24,227 nucleotides of DNA from a virus: IMG/VR virus record IMGVR_UViG_3300031787_000817, positions 1-24,227 of that record. One strand, 5' to 3'. Under the pieces are notes generated by a model. It was not told the DNA's origin, searched no databases, and saw only the letters and a program-made list of their open reading frames with translations. This document shows positions 990 to 24,227 of this stretch, piece by piece. A program made the translations under genes and the position numbers. Every line of letters begins with the position of its first letter. Position 1 is the first letter of the stretch.

Positions 990-2325
990 ACCTCTTAGCC
1001 AGTCGCGCCTGATAAACCCGCTCAGCCCATCCTCGCTTGTAGCCGCGTTGCTGCGCTAGCTCGCGGAGAGCTTCAAGGTCACGGGCAGAGGACTGCTCAC
1101 GGCGCTTAGCCACTGCCAACTCCTGCAACTCGCCGTCAACCTGCTGCAGCTCACGCCGCTCCTGTGGTGCAAACACATGGCCGCACTCGCGGCATACCTG
1201 CGCAGCACTGGCGCTGGTGGCGAAGCACTGCGGGCAGACCTTGACTGATGGCGCTGCCTCGCGGTCTCTGCGGGCAACCCCGTCTAGCGTCCAGTCGCGT
1301 GGTTCTAGATGGTGGCCAAGCCGGAGCGTGTTGCCCACGTGATCGAGCACCACGGCGCGCTTGCCAGGCTGTGGCCTCAGGCAGCGACCGATCATCTGCA
1401 GGTGCAGCGCCACTGATGCGGTAGGCCGCAGCAGGATGCAGCCGCCGACGCTTGGCACGTCCACGCCTTCACCGATCAATGCGCAACTGGTGAGCACCTT
1501 GAGCCTCCCGGTGCCGAGATCGCTGAGCAGCTGCCGACGCTGCGCGGTATCCATGCTGCCGTCGATACTGGCCGCGGCGATGCCTGCTGACTGGAAGAGT
1601 GCAGCCACTGCCTCCGCGTGCGTCACGGAGCAGCAGAACGCAATTGCCGTCTGTCCTGGCAGGTGCTTGCGGTAGTGGCCAAGGCAGTCACCCATGATCG
1701 TGCCGACTCGCTGCTCAGCCTCCTTGGGGTCGAAGTCACCCATCCGCTTGCGCAGGCCGGTTGAGTCAAAACCAGGCGGTGCCAGCACTTTGGCGCCAGC
1801 GAGGAAGCCGGCATCCGTGAGCTGTTGCGCTGCTGGACCCTCCACCATGCACTGATAATGCTCACCTAGGCCGCGGCCATCGCTGCGGATTGGTGTGGCG
1901 GTGACGCCGAGCAGCTTGGCTTGTGCAAAGTGCTCGATCACGCGCGCCCATGTGCCGGCGGTGGTGTGGTGCGCCTCATCCACCACCAGGAGCTGGAAGA
2001 AATCCCGCGGCAGCAGGTGCAGCCTGCGGGCAAGTGTCTGCACACTGGCAACCTGCACCGTGCGGGATAGGTCCATTGCCTTACCGGCGCTGATGCGGCC
2101 ATGCGGCACCGGCATGGCGCGGCTTGCTTGATCCAGCAACTCTTGCCGGTGCACCAGCACCAGTACGCGGTTGCCTTTGATGCTGGCTTGCTGAGCGATG
2201 TAGCTGAATATGTAAGTCTTGCCGCCGCCGGTGGCGAGCACTGCCAGCACCGACCGTTTGCCCAGTTGGTACTGCAGGCGGATGTCGGTGATCAGTTGTT
2301 GCTGGTATGGGCGGAGTTGCATCAC
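979..2325 (-). CDS. SF2 DEAH-type DNA helicase with C-terminal zinc ribbon
   Basis: A 448-residue superfamily 2 helicase of the type III restriction/UvsW-like group. Visible motifs: Walker A ATGGGKT (31-37), DEAH (116-119), VTATP (141-145) and motif VI QMIGRCLRP (310-318). A CPQC...CREC zinc ribbon follows at 364-381, then a basic helical tail. Such phage helicases unwind or remodel branched DNA during replication and recombination. The start ATG overlaps the stop of the helicase-methyltransferase gene by four bases (ATGA), and the gene is followed by the VRR-NUC gene, so the three are co-transcribed. The protein begins with two Met codons and either could be used. The helicase assignment is firm; the substrate is not visible from sequence. 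Confidence 0.92.
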   Translation of the reverse strand: MMQLRPYQQQLITDIRLQYQLGKRSVLAVLATGGGKTYIFSYIAQQASIKGNRVLVLVHRQELLDQASRAMPVPHGRISAGKAMDLSRTVQVASVQTLARRLHLLPRDFFQLLVVDEAHHTTAGTWARVIEHFAQAKLLGVTATPIRSDGRGLGEHYQCMVEGPAAQQLTDAGFLAGAKVLAPPGFDSTGLRKRMGDFDPKEAEQRVGTIMGDCLGHYRKHLPGQTAIAFCCSVTHAEAVAALFQSAGIAAASIDGSMDTAQRRQLLSDLGTGRLKVLTSCALIGEGVDVPSVGGCILLRPTASVALHLQMIGRCLRPQPGKRAVVLDHVGNTLRLGHHLEPRDWTLDGVARRDREAAPSVKVCPQCFATSASAAQVCRECGHVFAPQERRELQQVDGELQELAVAKRREQSSARDLEALRELAQQRGYKRGWAERVYQARLAKRYGI

Positions 2326-4580
2326 ACCAGCACCCCCTGACGGTTGCTGGCAACCTCAGTCAGGTTCTTGACTGCGCAGTTGAAATACGACGGCTTCAGC
2401 TCAAACCCGACAAACTGGCGCCCAGCTTGGATGCTGCAGTAGCCCTCGGATCCGATGCCAGCGAACGGGCTGAGCACTACATCACCTGGGTTGCTCCACA
2501 GTTGCAGGCCGCGGCGGATCACCTCCAGTTGCAGCGGGCAGATGTGGCGCTCATCCTCATTGGCGCGAGCGCTGCGGTATTGCAGCGTGTCCGATGGGTT
2601 GATATCCATCCATACGGGGCTGGCGTACCGCTGCCAGATGTTGATCGAGTCCTTGATCGGATCCTTGGTCTTAGCTGGTGGATTCTCACCGGCAAACTCC
2701 GTGAACGGGCCAGCCACTGGCTCTGGGTTGTCGCCCAGCTTGCGCACCGTTACCAGATAGTCAGGGATGCCTTGGCGGCTGAGTGCAGAGTCCTTACGCA
2801 CTTGCTTATGCAGCAGGCCGATTGCCTTGGTGCGCTGCATGGCGGTGACTGGATCCTTCCAGATGCACACCTCGCTATGGAACACGAAGCCAGCGGCTTG
2901 GAAAATGCGCAGCATGTCGCCGCGGAAGTCCTTCACGCCAATGAAGCCATCGCGCTCCTTGCTGCTAGGCAGATTCATGCAATGGAAGCTGATCAACCGG
3001 CCAGGCATCATCACGCGGTGAAGCTCACTGGCTAGGAATCCGAAGTGATCAAAGAACTCCTGTTCAGTGCGGCTGTTGCCCATATCGCGGTCGCTGTTGC
3101 TGTAGGTGTAAAGCGACGCGAACGGCGGGCTGAAAATGCTGTAGTGGATGGAGTTGCTGTCGAGTTGCTTAATGCTCTCCACGCAGTCACCCATATACAT
3201 GTCCCAGCCGTCGCCGGACTTGTGCTCAGTGACATGCGGCGCCACTTGACGTTGGATCTTTTTGAGTTGTTCCATGGTTTGTTGCTTCATGATTTCAACC
3301 ATTGATTGGGCCATCTGGATGCTGTCCGCTTCTTTGCGGCGGATGTTGTCGATCACGCGGCCTTCTGCCACGTCGTAGATGATGTGTGCATTGACGGGCT
3401 GCTCTTGGCCGAACCGCCAGCAGCGGCGGATGGCTTGATAGAACGCCTCATAGCTGTGCGACAGTCCAACGAATGCGACGTTGTGGCAGCGCTGGAAGTT
3501 GAGCCCAAACCCAAAGATGCTGGGCTTGCTGACCAGAACGCGGATCTTGCCATCTTGAAAGTCGATGGCAGCTTGCCGCTTGTGATCGTCGGAGTCTGAG
3601 CCAGACACCTCAACCGCGCCGTTAATCGCAGCAGTCAGCGCCTTGCTCTCATCGTTGAGATCACACCACACCAGCCATTGCTCGCTGTTGCTGTTGGCAA
3701 GCTTGGCAGCGGCTGCAACGCGGAGGGTGAGCGATGCCTTGCGCACCTTGCGCTGATCGTTGAGCGTACGGGCCTCCATGGCGAACAGCGCCATCTGCCC
3801 GTCATCTCCTGCTGTTGCCTCGCGCGGGGTCTCAACCGTGCAGTCTTGGATCTGCAGCGCCGGCAGCACGAAGTTGCCGTCCTCGTAGCCAAGGTCTGAT
3901 GGCTTGCGGATGGTCACCGCCCAGCTGCAGACCCACTCCCAGAACTTGTCCCGTGCGTGACCCTTGAGCCGCCACTTAGCAGTGTCGCCGCCGTCATGCA
4001 CGAAGAACATGGCCAGCATCTCGGTGCGGGTCATGACGCCGATGAACTCAGCGTGGTTGCCGAGCTCCATGTGGTCATTGGGTGCCGGCGTCGCCGAACA
4101 CGCCAACCGGTATGGCGTCAGGCTGAATGACTCGATGATCTGGTTGCGGATCTTGCCGGTGTATGCCTTGAGGATGCTGGACTCATCCAGCACCACGCCT
4201 TGGAAGCTGCCGGGATCAAAGTGGCTCAGCTTCTCGTAGTTGGTCACCGTGATGCCGGGCTTGACCTCAGCTTGAGTGGCAGCGAACGAGCATGGGATGC
4301 CGAACTTGCTGCCCTCGCGCACTGTCTGATGCGCCACCGCAAGCGGTGCCAGCACCAGCACGTTGCCGCCGGTCTCTTGGTGCACCTGATGCGCCCACTC
4401 GAGCTGCATGGCGGTTTTACCCATGCCGCAGTCGGCCCAGATGCAGAACTTGCCGACACGGCAAGCCATGGTCACGATGTCCCGCTGAAACGGGAACAGC
4501 GGCGCGGTGAACTGCTGCGGGTCAAAGCCGGCAACAGGTGCTGCAGTGGATTTGGAGGCTAGGAAGTCTTGGTAGGTCAT
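2322..4580 (-). CDS. SNF2-like helicase fused to DNA amino-methyltransferase
   Basis: A 752-residue two-part protein. Residues about 25-430 are an SNF2/SF2 ATPase: Walker A ADCGMGKT (49-56), LDESS (131-135), SATPAPN (162-168), FGFGLNF (356-362) and motif VI QAIRRCWRFGQ (382-392). A helical linker joins residues about 455-745, a DNA N4/N6 amino-methyltransferase. The catalytic motif SPPF (484-487) comes before the AdoMet-binding motif SPFAGIGSEG (704-713), the permuted beta-class order. HICPLQ (679-684) sits where motif X is expected. An SPP rather than DPP catalytic motif leans toward N4-cytosine, but this is not decisive. It heads the helicase-nuclease block and overlaps its neighbours by four bases on each side. 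It may modify phage DNA against host restriction while translocating. Confidence 0.9.
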   Translation of the reverse strand: MTYQDFLASKSTAAPVAGFDPQQFTAPLFPFQRDIVTMACRVGKFCIWADCGMGKTAMQLEWAHQVHQETGGNVLVLAPLAVAHQTVREGSKFGIPCSFAATQAEVKPGITVTNYEKLSHFDPGSFQGVVLDESSILKAYTGKIRNQIIESFSLTPYRLACSATPAPNDHMELGNHAEFIGVMTRTEMLAMFFVHDGGDTAKWRLKGHARDKFWEWVCSWAVTIRKPSDLGYEDGNFVLPALQIQDCTVETPREATAGDDGQMALFAMEARTLNDQRKVRKASLTLRVAAAAKLANSNSEQWLVWCDLNDESKALTAAINGAVEVSGSDSDDHKRQAAIDFQDGKIRVLVSKPSIFGFGLNFQRCHNVAFVGLSHSYEAFYQAIRRCWRFGQEQPVNAHIIYDVAEGRVIDNIRRKEADSIQMAQSMVEIMKQQTMEQLKKIQRQVAPHVTEHKSGDGWDMYMGDCVESIKQLDSNSIHYSIFSPPFASLYTYSNSDRDMGNSRTEQEFFDHFGFLASELHRVMMPGRLISFHCMNLPSSKERDGFIGVKDFRGDMLRIFQAAGFVFHSEVCIWKDPVTAMQRTKAIGLLHKQVRKDSALSRQGIPDYLVTVRKLGDNPEPVAGPFTEFAGENPPAKTKDPIKDSINIWQRYASPVWMDINPSDTLQYRSARANEDERHICPLQLEVIRRGLQLWSNPGDVVLSPFAGIGSEGYCSIQAGRQFVGFELKPSYFNCAVKNLTEVASNRQGVLV

Positions 4581-10858: not shown

Positions 10859-11194
10859 ATGCTCAAGGGTGCTGAACTACTCGCTAAGGTCAAAGAACTG
10901 GCCGGCAATGCAACCAAGTCCGAAATGGTGCGAGAATGCGGCTACACCTCGCTCAAAACAGATGGCACTGAACGATTGAGCTTCAGCGCTTTCTATGACG
11001 CATTGCTCGAAGCAAAGGGTTTTGAGCTTGAAAAGGCACCTAAGCGCGGCCGCGGCCTGACCTACAAAGCCAAGGTGCAATTCAATGGCAAGCTGCAGAT
11101 TGGTGACGGCTACCTGCGCGAGATGGGTTACAAGCCCGGCGCTGAGTTTGACATCAAGATACGCGGCAACAGCATTACGCTGACTGCTGCCTAA
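10859..11194 (+). CDS. Cyanobacterial AbrB-like (cyAbrB) transcription regulator
   Basis: 111 residues matching the cyAbrB pattern. The N-terminus reads LKGAELLAKVKELAG, then SEMVRECGYTSLKTDGTER, then FYDALLEAKG. The C-terminal AbrB-type swapped-hairpin domain reads YKAKVQFNGKLQIGDGYL, then MGYKPGAEFDIKI. CyAbrB proteins are nearly universal in cyanobacteria and regulate carbon, nitrogen and other global responses by binding DNA with low specificity. In this family, unlike Bacillus AbrB, the DNA-binding domain is C-terminal. The gene lies between terminase and portal in the same orientation, with only short gaps, so it is expressed with the late genes. It could reset host transcription or repress phage genes. 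Confidence 0.88.
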   Translation: MLKGAELLAKVKELAGNATKSEMVRECGYTSLKTDGTERLSFSAFYDALLEAKGFELEKAPKRGRGLTYKAKVQFNGKLQIGDGYLREMGYKPGAEFDIKIRGNSITLTAA

Positions 11195-11220: not shown

Positions 11221-12666
11221 ATGTACACAGGCTTTAATAACTACGACCGACCTATTGCGCAGCGCCGCGTTACTCGCGTGCAGGATGCCAATACGGCGTG
11301 GTATGCACAAGAGGCGCATTGGATCCTGATCGAGGATCTGCTGCAAGGCACTTATGGGATGCGCCGCAAGCATCGCCGATATCTGCCGCAAGAGCCGCGC
11401 GAGCTAGACGAGTCCTATGACAACCGCCTTGCACGCAGCGTATGCCCGCCGTTCTATCAACGCCTAGAGCGGATGCTGGCTGGCATGTTGACGCGTAAGC
11501 CCGTGCGGCTTGACGACACTGCTGACATCATCCGTGAACAGTTGTTTGATGTTGACCTGCAAGGCAATGACCTCAACGTCTGGACCTACGAAACCACCCG
11601 TAAGATGGTCCGTTATGGCCACGTTGGTGTACTGGTGGATGCACCTGCTGATGGGGGTAGACCCTACTGGGTGAGCTATACACCACGGCAGATCCTTGGC
11701 TGGCGCGCTGAGCAGCAGGAAGGCCGGCAGGTGCTGACGCAACTGCGCCTGGCTGAGATGGTCACCGTGCCTGATGGTGAGTTCGGCGAGAAGGCAGTGG
11801 AGCAGATCCGTGTACTGACGCCAGGTGAGTTTCAACTACACCAGAAGCAAGACAACGGAGATTTCCAAGTTGTCGACGAAGGCCGCACCAGCCTTAGCGA
11901 GATCCCGTTTAGCGTTGCCTATGCGCAGCGCCACGGCTTCATGGAGTCACGGCCACCGCTGGAAGACATCGCCGAGCTGAACCTGAAGGCGTATCAGATC
12001 CAGAGTGACCTCGACAACCAGCTCCACATCAGTGCTGTGCCGATGCTGGCGTTTTATGGCTTCCCGTCTGCAGCAGAAGAAGTCAGCGCCGGACCGGGTG
12101 AAGCCATCGCATTCCCCGCTGATGGCCGCGCTGAATACATCGAACCCGCTGGCCGCAGTTTTGACTACCAGTTCCGCAGGCTTGAGCAGCTTGCACTGCA
12201 GATCAACGAGCTAGGGCTATCGGCAGTGTTGGGCCAGAAGCTATCCGCTGAAACTGCTGAGGCAAAGCGCATTGATCGCAGCCAAGGCGATAGCACCATG
12301 ATGGTGATTGCGCAGAACGTGCAGGACATGATCGACAACTGCCTGCAGTTTCATGCGCAGTACATCGGCAACAACACATCACCTGGCAGCAGCTATGTCA
12401 ACCGCGACTTTCTCGGCACACGCCTTGAGCCGCAGGAGATCCAATCGCTGCTGCAGCTTTACACCTCAGGCACCATCACGCAGGAAACGTTGCTGCGTGA
12501 GCTTGCCGAAGGCGACGTACTAGGCGACGACTTTAACGTGGATGAGGAGCTTGAAGCTACGGCCAATGCGGGGCTTGATCTACAACCTGCTGGACTGGGT
12601 AACCGACCGCTTAGTGGACCTGATGATCTGGATGGAACCGAGGAAACCCAGGAGACAGGAGCTTGA
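11221..12666 (+). CDS. Portal protein (DUF4055-like)
   Basis: 481 residues located right after the terminase region and before the minor head protein, the standard portal position. The sequence resembles the DUF4055 group of phage portals, including YLPQEPRELDESYDNRL, the FYQRLERMLAGMLTRKP segment and the later PRQILGWRAE stretch. The acidic tail (GLDLQPAGLGNRPLSGPDDL onward) is typical. Portals form a dodecameric ring at one capsid vertex through which DNA is pumped, and they bind the neck proteins. The 3' end overlaps the next small gene by about 35 bases. Start ATG 11221 follows the cyAbrB gene by 26 bases. Confidence 0.85.
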   Translation: MYTGFNNYDRPIAQRRVTRVQDANTAWYAQEAHWILIEDLLQGTYGMRRKHRRYLPQEPRELDESYDNRLARSVCPPFYQRLERMLAGMLTRKPVRLDDTADIIREQLFDVDLQGNDLNVWTYETTRKMVRYGHVGVLVDAPADGGRPYWVSYTPRQILGWRAEQQEGRQVLTQLRLAEMVTVPDGEFGEKAVEQIRVLTPGEFQLHQKQDNGDFQVVDEGRTSLSEIPFSVAYAQRHGFMESRPPLEDIAELNLKAYQIQSDLDNQLHISAVPMLAFYGFPSAAEEVSAGPGEAIAFPADGRAEYIEPAGRSFDYQFRRLEQLALQINELGLSAVLGQKLSAETAEAKRIDRSQGDSTMMVIAQNVQDMIDNCLQFHAQYIGNNTSPGSSYVNRDFLGTRLEPQEIQSLLQLYTSGTITQETLLRELAEGDVLGDDFNVDEELEATANAGLDLQPAGLGNRPLSGPDDLDGTEETQETGA

Positions 12667-12886
12667 TTATCACGTCAGTGCCTTGCCGCAAAAGGTCTTG
12701 GCCATCGTGCGGATCAGTTGGTACAAGCAAGGCAAGCCAGATGAAATTGACGAGACGATCCTGTACGAAGACGGCCAAAACGGTTACGACGCATTTGCTG
12801 CATTGATTACCACTGCATTGAACCGCGGCGCTAATGTCAGCATCCGCAGCGGCTACCAACCGGAAGATCTTGGCATTGAACGATGA
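12632..12886 (+). CDS. Small hypothetical protein between portal and minor head protein
   Basis: 84 residues if started at ATG 12632. The frame is open from ATG 12542, but that start would overlap the portal gene by 125 bases, so a later start is preferred. AGGAG motifs at 12650-12654 and 12657-12661 hint that initiation may be even later, perhaps TTG 12683. The reliable part is the beta-alpha sequence VLAIVRISWYKQGKPDEIDE, then YDAFAALITTALNRGA, then SGYQPEDLGIER. The stop overlaps the next start in ATGA. I do not recognise the family. Confidence 0.6.
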   Translation: MEPRKPRRQELDYHVSALPQKVLAIVRISWYKQGKPDEIDETILYEDGQNGYDAFAALITTALNRGANVSIRSGYQPEDLGIER

Positions 12887-14919
12887 GCACACCAGAAGCG
12901 CTCTATCGCAATGCAATCGACCTGAACCGCTACAGCAATAGCGTTGCGCGGCGCGTGATCAATGCCTACAACGACATCATCATTGATGCGGTCAATCAGC
13001 TGCGCACCATTGATGAGCTGTCGGCACCGGTCAAGGCAGCACGGCTGCGGGCGATCCTTGCGCAGTTGAAGGACAGCCTGGCAACGTGGGCAGGCGATGC
13101 AACGGAGCTGACCGCATTGGAGCTGCAAGGCATTGCGCAGTTGCAGTCTGAGTTTGTGACCGATCAACTGCGGCGTGCATTGCCGGCAGGTGCACGTGAT
13201 GCAGTGCGCACCGTGGAGATCAGCCCGCAGTTTGCGCAGTCAGTGGTCACCACTGATCCAACGCAGATCAATGTGGTGGCGTTGTCGGACGATCTGTACA
13301 AGTCTGTGTATGGCGCCGATGCGCTAGCGCGCCAAGCTGGATCTGGAGTTTTCAGCCTCACTGCAGCGCAAGGCGCCACGATCACGTTGCCCAATGGCGA
13401 AGTGGTCACCAAAGCATTTCGCGGCATTGCCGTTGACCAGGCTGAGCGGTTTTCTCAAGTCGTGCGGCAAGGCTTGCTGACTGGTGAGCCGACGCCAGCC
13501 ATTGCCAAGCGGCTGATCGGAAACCTTGAATTTGGCGAAGAAGCCAAGACCGTGAAACAGCTAGTTGCAGCAGGCGGCCAGGCAACAGCGGTTGCCGACA
13601 ATCAAATCGTTAGCCTTGTGCGCACCAGTATCAACCAAGTAGCTAATGCAGCTAGTCAGCAAGTGTATGAAGCCAATCAAGACATCACTAAAAAGTATCG
13701 CTATGTGGCAACATTGGATACCCGCACCAGCAGCATTTGCCGTGCATTGGATGGCCGCGAGTTTGAATACGGCAAAGGTCCAACACCGCCGCAGCACTTC
13801 AACTGCTTACCTGGGGACGCGCTCGTAGCGCCCCGTGGCAGGATTGCGGCGGTTTACCGTCGGCGTTATGAGGGCTTTCTCTACGTCATCAAGACCGCCG
13901 ATGGTGACGTAGTCAGAGTCACCCCAAATCATCCGATATTGACAAATGCCGGCTGGCAGCCTGCTCAAAGCATCAAGGTGGGTGATCAAGTTTTCAGCTG
14001 CTCGATCATTCCAAGCAAACTCATTGAGAATTGCCAAGAAGGCGATGCTGTAGCCACTGCTGAGGATGTATTTAGTGCGTTCCGGAAATCGAACACTGTG
14101 AGCGCCGTGGAAGTGCCAACCACCGCCCCAGATTTCCACGGCGATGCTTGGAGTGGTCTTGCAAAGCAGGTCGCAGTTGTACTTGCCGATCGGGAACTGC
14201 TGCTCACAGCCAATCCCGGCTTGCTCAAGGCATTGCTTGACCTTGGATTCCAGGGGTCCAACTTTGCGGCAGCGGCTAGCAGCCATCTTGAGCTGAGCGG
14301 CCTCACTGTTGGGGCGACCGCGCTTGGCGGCATGAGCAGCGGCGGCCAATGCCTTGCGCTCAGCGGAGGTAGCGCGACCCATGCGGGCAAATTGCTGCTC
14401 GCTTCGATTCCTGAGCTTGCGCCCGGATTCAAGGACGATCCGCTCTATGGGACGTGGCGAGACGTTGAATTGCTCGGCAATGCCTCGAATCCCAATGCCG
14501 CTGTCGTAGGCGGCAATGATCAGGTCGATGTCACCTGGGTTGGGCGGGAACCATTTAGTGGGCATGTCTACAACTTTGAAACAGAAAGCGGCACCTACTG
14601 GGCCGATGGCATCCTAACTCATAACTGCCGCAGCACTACCGTGCCGGTGATTGACTACAAAGAGCTGGGTTTCACGCCACCACCGCCAGCTAATCGTGCA
14701 TCAGCAGGCGGTCAGGTGCCGGCGGATCAGACTTACGGGCAATGGCTAGCAAAGCAAGACCTCGAAACCAAGGCCAAGGCATTGGGCGCTAACAAAGTGC
14801 CGTATTTCAACCGGCTTGCTGATAAGTATGGCCCGACTGACGCCATCGCCAAGCTAGTCCGTGATGACGGCTCAGAGCTAACCTTAGATCAGCTTCGCGC
14901 ACGATATGGACCTGCCTAG
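12883..14919 (+). CDS. Minor head protein (Mu F/SPP1 gp7-like), interrupted by an intein
   Basis: 678 residues as translated, 404 after removal of the 274-residue intein. The N-extein carries the phage head morphogenesis motif of the Mu F/SPP1 gp7 family: LVRTSINQVANAA, then YRYVATLDTRTSSICRALDG and PPQHFN. The C-extein resumes CRSTTVPVIDYKELGF, so the uninterrupted motif would read HFNCRSTTVP, as expected in intact relatives. These minor capsid proteins associate with the portal inside the prohead and can be injected with DNA. Splicing must occur to restore the conserved Cys-Arg-Ser segment. ATG 12883 overlaps the upstream stop by four bases. Confidence 0.9.
   Translation: MSTPEALYRNAIDLNRYSNSVARRVINAYNDIIIDAVNQLRTIDELSAPVKAARLRAILAQLKDSLATWAGDATELTALELQGIAQLQSEFVTDQLRRALPAGARDAVRTVEISPQFAQSVVTTDPTQINVVALSDDLYKSVYGADALARQAGSGVFSLTAAQGATITLPNGEVVTKAFRGIAVDQAERFSQVVRQGLLTGEPTPAIAKRLIGNLEFGEEAKTVKQLVAAGGQATAVADNQIVSLVRTSINQVANAASQQVYEANQDITKKYRYVATLDTRTSSICRALDGREFEYGKGPTPPQHFNCLPGDALVAPRGRIAAVYRRRYEGFLYVIKTADGDVVRVTPNHPILTNAGWQPAQSIKVGDQVFSCSIIPSKLIENCQEGDAVATAEDVFSAFRKSNTVSAVEVPTTAPDFHGDAWSGLAKQVAVVLADRELLLTANPGLLKALLDLGFQGSNFAAAASSHLELSGLTVGATALGGMSSGGQCLALSGGSATHAGKLLLASIPELAPGFKDDPLYGTWRDVELLGNASNPNAAVVGGNDQVDVTWVGREPFSGHVYNFETESGTYWADGILTHNCRSTTVPVIDYKELGFTPPPPANRASAGGQVPADQTYGQWLAKQDLETKAKALGANKVPYFNRLADKYGPTDAIAKLVRDDGSELTLDQLRARYGPA
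13804..14625 (+). other. Intein with intact splicing blocks (274 residues)
   Basis: The intein begins at Cys308 of the precursor (CLPGDALV, block A) and ends with ILTHN at residues 577-581; the +1 residue is Cys582. Block B is VTPNHPILTNAGW, with the TxxH residues Thr347 and His350. Block F is VYNFETESGTYWADG. All nucleophiles for standard class 1 splicing are present: Cys1, block B Thr/His, penultimate His, terminal Asn and Cys+1. The roughly 170 residues between the Hint halves show no LAGLIDADG or HNH motif in the sense frame and look like low-complexity filler. The same DNA encodes a nuclease on the other strand, which accounts for the size. Confidence 0.93.
13807..14565 (-). CDS. Antisense homing endonuclease (HTH plus Vsr/EDxHD-like nuclease) inside the intein
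   Basis: 252 residues on the opposite strand to the intein, codon-aligned with its frame. Residues 15-50 form a helix-turn-helix (GIRGIAEQFNVSPRPIERIV). A basic linker (AAKRGRPNSEAA) leads to a PD-(D/E)XK-type core: LESK with Glu106, IGKYNCDLL with Asp132, IAVEIWGGGWHFHG with Glu144, Trp150 and His151, then RFPERTKYILSSGYSIAFLAI, and QYRMIWGD at 209-216. This order matches Vsr-like EDxHD homing endonucleases. The ATG is opposite the His of GHVYNF and the TAA stop is opposite intein residue 2, so the gene fits entirely within the intein. No ribosome site is obvious. Long antisense frames also arise by chance here, so the call rests on the motifs. Confidence 0.85.
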   Translation of the reverse strand: MPTKWFPPNPGDIDLIIAAYDSGIGIRGIAEQFNVSPRPIERIVLESGRKLRNRSEQQFARMGRATSAERKALAAAAHAAKRGRPNSEAAQLKMAASRCRKVGPLESKVKQCLEQAGIGCEQQFPIGKYNCDLLCKTTPSIAVEIWGGGWHFHGAHSVRFPERTKYILSSGYSIAFLAILNEFAWNDRAAENLITHLDALSRLPAGICQYRMIWGDSDYVTIGGLDDVEKALITPTVNRRNPATGRYERVPR

Positions 14920-19989: not shown

Positions 19990-20748
19990 ATGGCTGTCAC
20001 TGTTTTGTCCGGTACGTCCGGCGCCCTTTACTACAAACCCGCCGGGACTAACGGCAACTTCCCCGAATCTGGCGTCAACGCCAGCACTGATGTCATCACC
20101 GTTCAGCCGTATCTGAACTTCAAAGCTGGCGATCCGGTGAAATTCCGCGTCATCAACAGCCAGACCGGTGGATCTGGATCCGGTACGCTGCCGTCTCCCA
20201 TTGATGGTGCCACCACTTATTACGTGCTGAGCTACACCGCCGCTACTGGCGCGCTGACCGTCTCCACAGCAGCCGGCGGCACCATCCTCGCCATCACCGA
20301 CGACGGCACGGCTGTAGCACCTAACGAGTTCGAGGTGTATTACGCCGACTATGCGGCAGTCGGGCAAGTGCAGTCCTGGTCGTTTGAAATCAGCCGCGCC
20401 GAGATTGACGTCACCACCATCGGCCAAACCGCTGGGCAATACGCGCCCTTCCGCGTTTACATTCCCGGCTTCGCTGATGGCAGCGGCACTGCCACCATCT
20501 ACGTGACCAACGAAGATGCTGCGCTGTCCAACCGCATGGTGGAAGACGTGCTGCAGCGCCAGCAGGTTGGTTGCGGCTTCAAGCTGTACACCGACAAGGG
20601 CGCTACCGAAGCACTGAGCCGCAGCATCGCAATGGATGCCGTGCTGTTGACCGCCAGCTTGAACATCAACCCTGATGATGCTCAGCAGGTGGAGATCACA
20701 TTCCGCCCGGCGGGTGTGCCCACTTTCGACTTCAGCACTTCTGCTTGA
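19990..20748 (+). CDS. Major tail tube protein with inserted beta domain
   Basis: 252 residues. The tube-like part includes AVGQVQSWSFEISRAEIDVT, TIGQTAGQYAPFRVYIPGF, GSGTATIYVTNEDAALSNRM and FKLYTDKGATEALSRSIAMD. Residues about 35-105 (FKAGDPVKFRVINSQTGGSG, then TYYVLSYTAATGALTVST) look like a separate Ig-like beta domain inserted near the N-terminus, probably exposed on the tail surface. Codon use is C-ending as in the capsid gene, indicating high expression. No sheath gene is nearby, supporting a non-contractile tail. Confidence 0.85.
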   Translation: MAVTVLSGTSGALYYKPAGTNGNFPESGVNASTDVITVQPYLNFKAGDPVKFRVINSQTGGSGSGTLPSPIDGATTYYVLSYTAATGALTVSTAAGGTILAITDDGTAVAPNEFEVYYADYAAVGQVQSWSFEISRAEIDVTTIGQTAGQYAPFRVYIPGFADGSGTATIYVTNEDAALSNRMVEDVLQRQQVGCGFKLYTDKGATEALSRSIAMDAVLLTASLNINPDDAQQVEITFRPAGVPTFDFSTSA

Positions 20749-20794: not shown

Positions 20795-21151
20795 ATGGCA
20801 TCATCTGCACTGGCACGGCTCAAAAAAGCAGCCAATCTTCAGCCAATCAAACGCGTCGTAACACTCAGCGATGGAACTACGTTTGAGTTTTATGCCACGG
20901 CTTTGACTATGGCAGAGCGCGAGCGCGCGCAGAAAATGCCAGGTGGCGATGACCCCAATGGCTTTGCGCTGAATCTGCTCGTGACCAAAGCAGCTGACGA
21001 TGCTGGCCAGCGGTTGTTTCAGGCCGGTGAAATTGCTGAGCTGAAGAATGACGTGCTTGATAGCGATTTGCAAGCCATGATGCTCGCTATCATCACCAAC
21101 CCTGAGGAAGCTGAAACCGACATGAAAAGCTCTGAAAAAGGAGCTAAGTAA
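20795..21151 (+). CDS. Tail assembly chaperone, zero-frame product (gpG-like)
   Basis: 118 residues between the tail tube and tape measure genes, the fixed place of the tail assembly chaperone. The sequence is like this class: VVTLSDGTTFEFYATALTMA, then NLLVTKAADDAGQRLF and LKNDVLDSDLQAMMLAIITN. It ends after a run of five A at 21135-21139 (codons GAA AAA GGA GCT AAG TAA). The following frame, 21138-21314, has no good start codon but a conserved-looking T-like sequence, so a fraction of ribosomes probably shift frame near the A run to make a longer G-T product. Confidence 0.8.
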   Translation: MASSALARLKKAANLQPIKRVVTLSDGTTFEFYATALTMAERERAQKMPGGDDPNGFALNLLVTKAADDAGQRLFQAGEIAELKNDVLDSDLQAMMLAIITNPEEAETDMKSSEKGAK

Positions 21152-21314
21152 AGACAATCTGCTGCTGCTGCAGCTTGGCGTAGCAAAAGAGCTGGGCTAC
21201 ACGCTAGCTCGGCTCAACCGTGAGGTAACGCTTGAAGAGCTGCTGCTTTGGTCTAGCTATTTTGAGCTTCAGAATGAAGAGCAGGATCGTAGAATGAAGC
21301 AACGCCGTAGGTAA
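21138..21314 (+). CDS. Frameshift extension of tail chaperone (gpT-like)
   Basis: 58 codons with no ATG, GTG or TTG start except an ATG close to its end. The sequence reads KELSKDNLLLLQLGVAKELG, then LARLNREVTLEELLLWSSYF and a charged tail, resembling the T part of phage G-T chaperones. Its frame is +1 (or -2) relative to the gpG-like frame. From the AAA codon at 21137-21139, a -2 slip re-pairs perfectly on AAA 21135-21137, and a +1 slip re-pairs on AAG 21138-21140. The -1 frame meets TAA at once. The fused product would be 172 or 173 residues. Confidence 0.7.
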   Translation, partial: KELSKDNLLLLQLGVAKELGYTLARLNREVTLEELLLWSSYFELQNEEQDRRMKQRRR

Positions 21315-21317
21315 GTC

Positions 21318-24227
21318 GTGTCGGTTGTCGCCAACGTTGCCATTAACGTCGACAGCCGGGACGCAGTTAGCAAGCTGCGGCAGGTTGAGTCGCAAGCAGC
21401 TACTACCGAGCGTGCATTTGGCGCGTTGCAATCTGCATTGGGCGCATTAGGCGTTGGCTTTGCGCTGACAAAGGTTATTGCAGATGTTAAAGAATTAGAT
21501 ACAAACATTCGCCGTCTTGCAACGGTTGGTGTAGATGTAGCCAAGATTAACCCTGCGCTTTCGTCTTTAAGCAAAGAGCTTGGTGGTGTTGCTAGCAAAG
21601 CTGAATTAGCAGCAGCTTCATATCAAGCCGCATCTGCAGGCTTTAGCGACACTGCAGGCAATGTTAATATATTGCGCGCTGCAACTAAAGCTGCTGTTGG
21701 CGGATTGGCTGATACGCAAGCTGTAACTGAAGTCTTGGTAAAGACTTTAAACAGCTATGGAATGTCTGGCAGCCAAGCAATACAGGTAACCGACAGCATT
21801 TCTAAAGCAGTCGAGCTAGGCAATCAAGAGTGGTCGGATTACACTAGTCAACTTGGCCGCGTAGCGAGCATGGCGGCATTGGCTGGTGTCAGCCTTGACG
21901 AGACGAATGCGTTTATTGCATCCGCCACAAAAAATGGCGCTACGGCAGAAGTGGCATTTACTGGCCTTAGTGCTGTACTGACACAGCTATTGCAGCCAAC
22001 CAAAGAAAGCCAAGAAGCAGCAGCAAAACTTGGCGTTCAATGGAACCTAATGGGCCTTCAGACTAAAGGTCTTGGCGGTTTAATGGAAGAATTAGCAGTT
22101 GCTATTGATAAAGACAAAGAAGCGGCGGCTCGCATGGTTGGACCCACGGAAGCCATGCGGGGTGCGTTTGCCGCTGCATCCAAAAATGGCTCCGACTTTA
22201 AAAATATCCTTGAACAAATTGGAAACGCATCTGGTAAAACAGATGCTGATTTTCAAACGATGAAAGTCAGCCTTGAGAATGCGCTCAAGGCATTAGATAC
22301 ATCATTTAAGAACCTTAGCGAAGCATTAGGCAAAGCTTTTGGACGAGCGGTTGTTTCAACTATTGAGGACGTTACGGATACAGTCAATGCTTTTGCTGAT
22401 GCAATCAATGCTGTGCCTCAACCAGTTGCAGCGGCAATCGCTGAAATTGTCAAAATCGTTGCGCAAATGATTCTGCTGCAAAAAGCAATCCAAGGAATTA
22501 TTGCTTTGCGCGCAGGTTTTGTTGCTGCAATGACTGGCATGGCGGCAACAACAGCCGCAACAGGAACGGCCGCAACAGCTAGCTCTTCTGCTTTTGCTCT
22601 TTATACAGCAAACACTAGAACGCTTCAAGCTGCTGCTGCAACTGCAACGCCAACTCTGGTTGGTTTGCGCGGTGTATTGGCAAGCCTAGCTTCTATTGGA
22701 ACAATCGCTATTGCCGTCAATATTGCTGTTTACGGCATACAAGCTGTTATGCAGGCTAGGGCAGAGCTAGATCGTTTGCGTGGCGTTCGACAAGCAGGCG
22801 GTGCAGCGGCAACATTTGGCGGATCCGCTCCGGCGGCGTCTAAAGAAACTGCGCGCAAAACCTTGGCGGCAATCGAAGCTGAGCGCGAAAAGAATTTGCC
22901 AATGCAGGCCATTGGGGCAATTAGCGGATTTGGTCGCGGACTGGGAAATACACGCGAACAAATCCTTGCCGAGCGCGAACGTTTTGCTCGCGGTGTTTTG
23001 GCTTTGCCAACGCGTACGGCGCAAACACCAGCACTCAACGCCATAAATACGCCTGTAGGCGCCACAGTGGGCGGCGGCAGTAACGGCCGCAAAGGCAAAA
23101 CCGACGCCGAGAAGGCAGCAGAAAAAGCAGCACGCGAAGCGGAAAAATTACGGCAAGAGCTTGAACGGTCGCTTGAAGTTGGCGATCAACTGGGCGTCCA
23201 GTTCAAACGCCAAGTCATCCTGTTGGATGAGTCATCCGAGCTGGAGCGGCAACGCTTGCAAATCCAGTTTGATTACGAAGATCGAGCAAAGCAGATTGGC
23301 GAACTCAAAAACGCAGAGCAGCGTATCAACCTAACGGATCTAAACAATGAAATCAAACGACTGGAAACGCTAAAGCTCCAGACCGATGAAATCAAAAAAC
23401 AGCTTGAAGAGTACTACAAGCGCGCTGGATTACAAGCTGGCGAGATGCTACCCGGCGGCGCTGGAACATTTAGGACCGATATCAACCTAATGCCGGGCGC
23501 TGGTGAGCAGCAAATGGCTAAATACCGGGAAGAGCTGGAAGCGCTGACCAATCCAATCAACATGGCGGTAACTGGCGCCAATGCCATAGGCGACGCTTTT
23601 GGTGCTGCGTTCCAAGACATTGCAACCGGCGCCAAATCAACTGAAGAAGCTTTGGCTGATGCGTTTAAAAGTATTGGCAGTGCGTTTATTAGTATGGCAA
23701 CAGAAATTATTGCCAAGCAAATGGCGATGATTGTATTTCAAACAATCCTTAAAGCGCTTGGCGGTGGCGGTGGCGGATTGTTTGGTGGCGACGGTCCAGT
23801 TGCAATGCCTGGTGGCGCAGGATTTGCGGAAGGATTTTCGATGCCATCACTGCTGCCGGGTCGCGCCAACGGCGGCCCAGTCGGCAGCAGCCAGCCCTAC
23901 ATCGTCGGTGAGCGCGGTCCCGAGTTGTTTGTGCCTGGCGTTAGCGGCAGCGTCGTATCCAATGCCGACACCCGCGCCGCATTAGCCCAGCAAGCCACAA
24001 ACCGTCAAGGCAATGACACGCGGGCAATGCTCAATCAGCAAACTGCCAACCGTCAGATGAATGCTGGCGGTAGCGCAATGCAGCAAAAACCGATCGAGGT
24101 GAAATACGAATCGACCGTGATCAACGGCGTTGAATACGTCACCACTGAGCAGCATCAGCGTGGCATTGCGTTGGCAGCAGAACGCGGCAGGGCGCTTACA
24201 CTGCAAACACTGCAAAACTCAGTAAAA
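21318..24227 (+). CDS. Tape measure protein, C-terminus beyond the window
   Basis: 970 codons from GTG 21318, open to the right edge. The N-terminus (VANVAINVDSRDAVSKLRQV) and the TP901-type core (ASYQAASAGFSDTAGNVNIL; VLVKTLNSYGMSGSQAIQVT) are typical. A hydrophobic, potentially membrane-active segment spans residues about 446-478, and another 784-815. A coiled coil lies near 594-705. Near the end comes ANGGPVGSSQPYIVGERGPE followed by LFVPG, a common tape measure C-terminal motif, so little is missing. It sets tail length and helps DNA enter the cell. The first two thirds are visibly more A/T-rich in codon choice than the tube gene. Confidence 0.9.
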   Translation, partial: MSVVANVAINVDSRDAVSKLRQVESQAATTERAFGALQSALGALGVGFALTKVIADVKELDTNIRRLATVGVDVAKINPALSSLSKELGGVASKAELAAASYQAASAGFSDTAGNVNILRAATKAAVGGLADTQAVTEVLVKTLNSYGMSGSQAIQVTDSISKAVELGNQEWSDYTSQLGRVASMAALAGVSLDETNAFIASATKNGATAEVAFTGLSAVLTQLLQPTKESQEAAAKLGVQWNLMGLQTKGLGGLMEELAVAIDKDKEAAARMVGPTEAMRGAFAAASKNGSDFKNILEQIGNASGKTDADFQTMKVSLENALKALDTSFKNLSEALGKAFGRAVVSTIEDVTDTVNAFADAINAVPQPVAAAIAEIVKIVAQMILLQKAIQGIIALRAGFVAAMTGMAATTAATGTAATASSSAFALYTANTRTLQAAAATATPTLVGLRGVLASLASIGTIAIAVNIAVYGIQAVMQARAELDRLRGVRQAGGAAATFGGSAPAASKETARKTLAAIEAEREKNLPMQAIGAISGFGRGLGNTREQILAERERFARGVLALPTRTAQTPALNAINTPVGATVGGGSNGRKGKTDAEKAAEKAAREAEKLRQELERSLEVGDQLGVQFKRQVILLDESSELERQRLQIQFDYEDRAKQIGELKNAEQRINLTDLNNEIKRLETLKLQTDEIKKQLEEYYKRAGLQAGEMLPGGAGTFRTDINLMPGAGEQQMAKYREELEALTNPINMAVTGANAIGDAFGAAFQDIATGAKSTEEALADAFKSIGSAFISMATEIIAKQMAMIVFQTILKALGGGGGGLFGGDGPVAMPGGAGFAEGFSMPSLLPGRANGGPVGSSQPYIVGERGPELFVPGVSGSVVSNADTRAALAQQATNRQGNDTRAMLNQQTANRQMNAGGSAMQQKPIEVKYESTVINGVEYVTTEQHQRGIALAAERGRALTLQTLQNSVK

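Follow-up and report, generated by a model that had tools for sequence, protein, structure and literature searches.

The window, a 24,227-base virus record analysed over its whole length, belongs to a virus that we describe as cyanophage-like. It carries a siphovirus tail module with a tail terminator (phrog_179), a major tail protein, a short gene (G) and a tape measure protein. A second reading frame (T) overlaps the 3' end of G, and the locus has the following features:

19990–20748, plus strand: major tail protein, upstream neighbour of G (phrog_158, E 1.8e-07)
20795–21151, plus strand: G, predicted tail assembly chaperone, zero-frame product of 118 aa (open reading frame; phrog_20784)
21104–21109, plus strand: weak Shine-Dalgarno (SD)-like GAGGAA, roughly 20 nt 5' of the slip, a possible stimulator (anti-SD energy)
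21123–21125, plus strand: T-frame stop TGA just 5' of the slip, bounding the overlap (TGA or TAA here in 198 of 199 +1 sequences)
21125–21130, plus strand: putative slip site AAA AGC, P-site AAA slipping +1 to 21126–21128, A-site AGC (conservation)
21126–21314, plus strand: T, predicted +1 frame extension with stop TAA at 21312–21314 (translation, no starts; tblastn and PHROG tail matches)
21135–21139, plus strand: five-A run, absent from many +1 relatives and not the conserved slip site
21161–21174, plus strand: small hairpin, not conserved (in the MFE fold of the window)
21318–24227, plus strand: tape measure protein, downstream neighbour, running off the window (phrog_991, E 3.3e-43)

The placement of a short gene between phrog_158 and phrog_991, with a conserved second frame that covers its 3' end and has no start of its own, is the arrangement of a G/GT pair. 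G ends in ...GAC ATG AAA AGC TCT GAA AAA GGA GCT AAG TAA, as the initial annotation had read it. The same annotation described a T-like frame in the +1 (equivalent to -2) register without a usable start and an immediate stop in the -1 frame. Both hold: T is open from 21126 to its stop codon and has no ATG, GTG or TTG until an ATG near the 3' end, and the -1 frame meets TAA at 21145–21147. Furthermore, codon periodicity in the T frame begins right after the slip site. A sequencing error, named at the outset as a possible refutation, is excluded because T keeps the same register in identical or near-identical contigs and in 199 distinct +1 sequences.

Elsewhere in the window, we identified a head morphogenesis gene (12883–14919, plus strand) with a Phage_Mu_F domain and an intein-like insert at about residues 309–581, for which the Intein_splicing match is sub-threshold (E 7e-06). 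An antisense open reading frame of 252 aa inside this insert (13807–14565, minus strand) has a weak helix-turn-helix match and may be an endonuclease gene opposite the intein. An AbrB-like regulator (10859–11194, plus strand; PF14250, E 4e-18) occupies an unusual position for a gene of its kind, between a terminase-like gene and a gene at 11221. The window also encodes a 752-aa protein (2322–4580, minus strand) that fuses a DEAD/ResIII-type helicase to an N6/N4 DNA methylase domain.

For G, an AlphaFold2 model with a mean pLDDT of 85.6 has the tail assembly chaperone of HK97 (2OB9) as its best PDB match, covering almost the full length of G (Foldseek E 2.5e-03, TM 0.51; VIA Z 7.8, rmsd 4.0, 99 residues aligned), a moderate match that gives the predicted model a tail assembly chaperone fold. 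Among viral models, predicted phage proteins named tail assembly chaperone come next. Some relatives have a weak, sub-threshold match to Pfam Phage_TAC_13, and T matches PHROG tail families weakly; a search of solved structures by sequence returned nothing useful. The fold of G and the family matches, the gene order and the parallel with lambda suggest a chaperone function. By analogy with lambda, G would coat the tape measure protein and the G-T fusion would recruit the tail tube protein.

Searches of viral contigs took as queries the G and T sequences from three sources, namely the window, Cyanophage KBS-S-2A and the marine virus AG-345-A17; a profile and one distant member served as further queries. 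Removal of duplicates left 238 relatives, 199 with T in the +1 frame (the window included) and 39 with T in the -1 frame; no relatives were found in genome contigs. Raw counts overstate independence because many relatives are closely akin, and entropy and codon tests were run on dereplicated sets.

Comparing the slip site across these relatives, a check that the initial annotation had suggested, identified AAA AGY (21125–21130 in the window) as the conserved element. The hexamer is in frame in 199 of 199 +1 sequences, with AGC in 193 and AGT in 6. G ends directly after AAA AGY in 60 sequences, nearly all of them marine, and in the marine form TTG AAA AGC TAA a UGA or UAA immediately 5' of the site shuts off the T frame. 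These two bounds confine the shift to AAA or AGC. The phase of variability also changes here. Among 64 dereplicated window-type sequences, entropy peaks at third positions of the G frame upstream (1.33 vs 0.72 and 0.61) and at third positions of the T frame downstream (1.27 vs 0.42 and 0.33), and the block ATGAAAAG is invariant between the two. The phase switches likewise in the marine group. Moreover, the slip AAA has zero synonymous variants in either of the two main groups (65 and 43 sequences after dereplication). It is, with a GAG six codons upstream, one of only two of the 38 conserved degenerate codons in the marine group without synonymous change.

As judged from sequence comparison, a G/GT tail assembly chaperone pair is very probably made by programmed +1 ribosomal frameshifting at AAA AGC. 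The initial annotation had proposed a programmed frameshift in a siphophage tail assembly chaperone; its register and the lack of an independent T start stand, and its five-A slip site, its -2 option and its stimulators do not. A +1 or -2 shift at the five-A run (GAA AAA GGA, 21134–21142) is improbable. The run lies inside the overlap in the window and would permit perfect -2 and good +1 re-pairing, but it is missing from most +1 relatives, whereas AAA AGY is found in all of them. Relatives without it read, for example, ...AAAAGCGGTAAAGGCTGA (27 loci), ...AAAAGCACTCAAGCGAGAAC (L106) or AAAAGCTAA; a large group with ...ATGAAAAGCGGTAAAGGCTGA and the marine form TTG AAA AGC TAA also lack it, and the run varies even within the window's own type (GAAAGGGGA in L099). 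Whole groups lack it and still require a shift to the same register, which argues that it is not the slip site. Slightly less probable again is the translation of T alone, via a non-canonical start or reinitiation. TTG does occur among the Leu codons of T in some window-type relatives, but none of ATG, GTG and TTG occurs among the first 20 codons of T in 48 of 112 window-type sequences and in 67 of 76 marine ones, and the possible starts, where present, have no conserved position. Selection in the T frame also starts immediately after AAA, and the -1 relatives require the same junction. Transcriptional slippage at the conserved site, which has only four A, we take to be unlikely.

The direction of the shift is also constrained by the products. 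The canonical -1 heptamer does not apply to the window; T is +1 in all 199 +1 sequences and the window's -1 frame stops immediately. Least probable of all is a -2 shift at AAA AGC or elsewhere, although it gives the same output frame and phage Mu uses it for its G-T equivalent (PMC5009743). The -2 codon at the conserved site is UGA, UAA or CCA, on which tRNA-Lys would need to re-pair, and a slip that lands on UGA or UAA makes this mechanism very unlikely. The -2 product would also be one residue longer than its -1 homologues. Indeed, the predicted +1 fusion (DMK-ALKKEL) is residue-for-residue colinear with the -1 fusion of KBS-S-2A (DVKN-LKQEL), as are those of the sisters L352 (+1, DMK-VLQAEL) and L355 (-1, DPK-ILGAEL), a colinearity that fits +1 and not -2. 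Skipping the first A after the ATG codon would yield the same +1 peptide as AAA slippage.

In the +1 frameshifting at AAA AGC that we favour, most ribosomes would read G through to its stop. A minority would pause while the P site holds tRNA-Lys on AAA (21125–21127) and the A site holds AGC. The peptidyl-tRNA would then move one base forward onto AAA (21126–21128), and the next codon would be GCT (Ala, 21129–21131), giving the fusion ...ETDMK-ALKKELSKDNLLLLQLG... In 199 of 199 +1 sequences this movement re-pairs tRNA-Lys from AAA to AAA, consistent with P-site slippage as the step.

What might stimulate the shift differs between groups. The initial annotation listed the five-A run, AAGGAG (21138–21143) and the hairpin, all present in the window, the hairpin in its minimum-energy fold. 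As stimulators the last two did not hold up: AAGGAG is not conserved among relatives, and the hairpin has a local z of -0.4 to -1.0 and is missing from the 32-sequence consensus fold. No clear downstream structural stimulator was found (mean z -1.0 in the window type and -0.5 in the marine group), and the downstream consensus fold is weak and about 60 nt away. Upstream, the anti-SD energy of window-type +1 sequences is below that of synonymous shuffles at -25 to -18 (z about -6, 53 sequences). The marine group has a strong SD-like stretch from -29 to -22 (mean energy of -10.5 kcal/mol; z -24 vs synonymous shuffles), which is kept while the encoded residues vary (KEV, RGV, REV and KGV). On its 3' side is a conserved GAGGCUAAAGCC with a possible GGC-UAAA-GCC hairpin. 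Marine members of the AG-345-A17 type, such as L209, L222 and L240, combine this strong internal SD-like stretch, 22 nt 5' of the slip codon, with a near-invariant GAGGCTAAAGCC, the nucleotides being kept despite amino acid changes. Relative to the slip codon, the SD-like stretch of the -1 members lies at about -15 to -7, a placement similar to that of dnaX, and the one in window-type +1 members is weaker. Shifting to +1 can be stimulated by upstream hairpins adjacent to the site and by an SD duplex formed at the E site (PMC6321510); an SD about 20 nt upstream does not fit these known +1 stimulators adjoining the E site.

No Ser codon is used more often in the window than AGC (26.8 per 1000), so a rare A-site codon, and with it a rare-codon pause, is not supported there. 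In the marine group AGC is rare, accounting for 8 of roughly 300 Ser codons within G. By itself the hexamer is unlikely to suffice, since AAA AGY occurs in frame at two other places in the 6,487 codons of the window.

A canonical X XXY YYZ heptamer is present in 38 of the 39 -1 relatives. The closest annotated relative, Cyanophage KBS-S-2A (HQ634187), has a G 65% and a T 75% identical to those of the window and the same gene order; its tail chaperone differs in the shift, which is -1 on A AAA AAC. The cultured relatives S-H1, Roseobacter CRP-823, Pelagibacter HTVC202P and HTVC026P share this heptamer, A AAA AAC, and likewise place T in the -1 frame, which suggests that -1 may be ancestral. The public annotation omits T from KBS-S-2A (L082) and gives it a wrong start in S-H1 (L166, MK105819), and each should be a -1 G-T fusion.

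The tree of G needs four changes of direction, three of them forced by well-supported branches such as the one that places L352 (+1) beside L355 and L364 (-1). A single +1 clade, and with it one origin for every +1 member, is nevertheless not rejected by the AU test (p 0.084). The nearest cultured relatives shift -1 on canonical heptamers and the +1 and -1 fusions are colinear, which indicates a change of direction inside a single family. One switch at the least is secure, and repeated switching is likely, though not proven. Between close relatives the skip has changed direction while the protein stayed the same.

Recoding of tail chaperones is among the commonest frameshifts in nature and has been described nearly always as -1. 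A large aquatic phage family that uses +1 on one fixed hexamer beside near relatives that use -1 is a natural experiment on what sets the direction of shift and how it changes. The AAA_AGY site is short and can be tested in standard reporters, and the frameshift accounts for a T missed in annotation (absent in KBS-S-2A, wrong start in S-H1). It also offers an added motif for frameshift predictors, whose authors identified no general forward motif (PMC10885494). A literature search for the AAAAGC motif returned incidental matches only, and no description of AAA_AGY or of the window's chaperone family was found in the literature searched, which did not extend to subscription papers. Somewhat short of an even chance, in our estimate, is the combined reading that AAA_AGY is an undescribed bacterial +1 signal needing neither a stop nor a rare codon, that in marine members the strong internal SD, some 22 nt 5' of the slip, and a mini-hairpin close to the E site assist it, and that the signal was gained more than once in phage tail chaperones from -1 ancestors via two-base indels that kept the fusion colinear.

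The kind of recoding is known, as -1, -2 and +1 shifts have all been described for the G/GT pair of tailed phages (PMC5009743). What is new, as far as sequence can tell, is a predicted +1 site, AAA_AGY, that involves neither a stop nor a rare codon within that known scheme. Like gpG/gpGT of lambda, the window has two overlapping frames before the tape measure gene and a C-terminal extension of G via a frameshift near its end; lambda and most phages use -1 on a heptamer (PMC5009743), whereas the window family would use +1 on AAA_AGY. Phage Mu and HSTV-2 have the same output frame, +1 relative to G, but Mu goes back two bases, unlike the window family (PMC5009743). For the tail chaperone of HSTV-2, a myovirus of haloarchaea, the +1 shift is a prediction described as very likely (PMC5009743). 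Slippage of +1 in phage structural genes is established in capsid or tail tube genes of the Listeria phages PSA, A118 and A500 and of SPP1, where it takes place on CCC beside a stop or a pseudoknot (PMC5009743, PMC6316719). The Listeria relatives differ in direction too, with cps shifting -1 in A118 and A500 and +1 in PSA, and the tail chaperone of SPP1 itself has a predicted -1 shift on UUUUUUC (PMC5009743, PMC6316719). The shift is +1 also in prfB and in yeast Ty1 and Ty3, known sites with a slow A-site codon, which in Ty3 is also Ser (AGU) (PMC5009743, PMC6321510). However, prfB depends on a stop codon together with an SD next to the E site (PMC5009743, PMC6321510), whereas the A-site codon of the window is a common sense codon.
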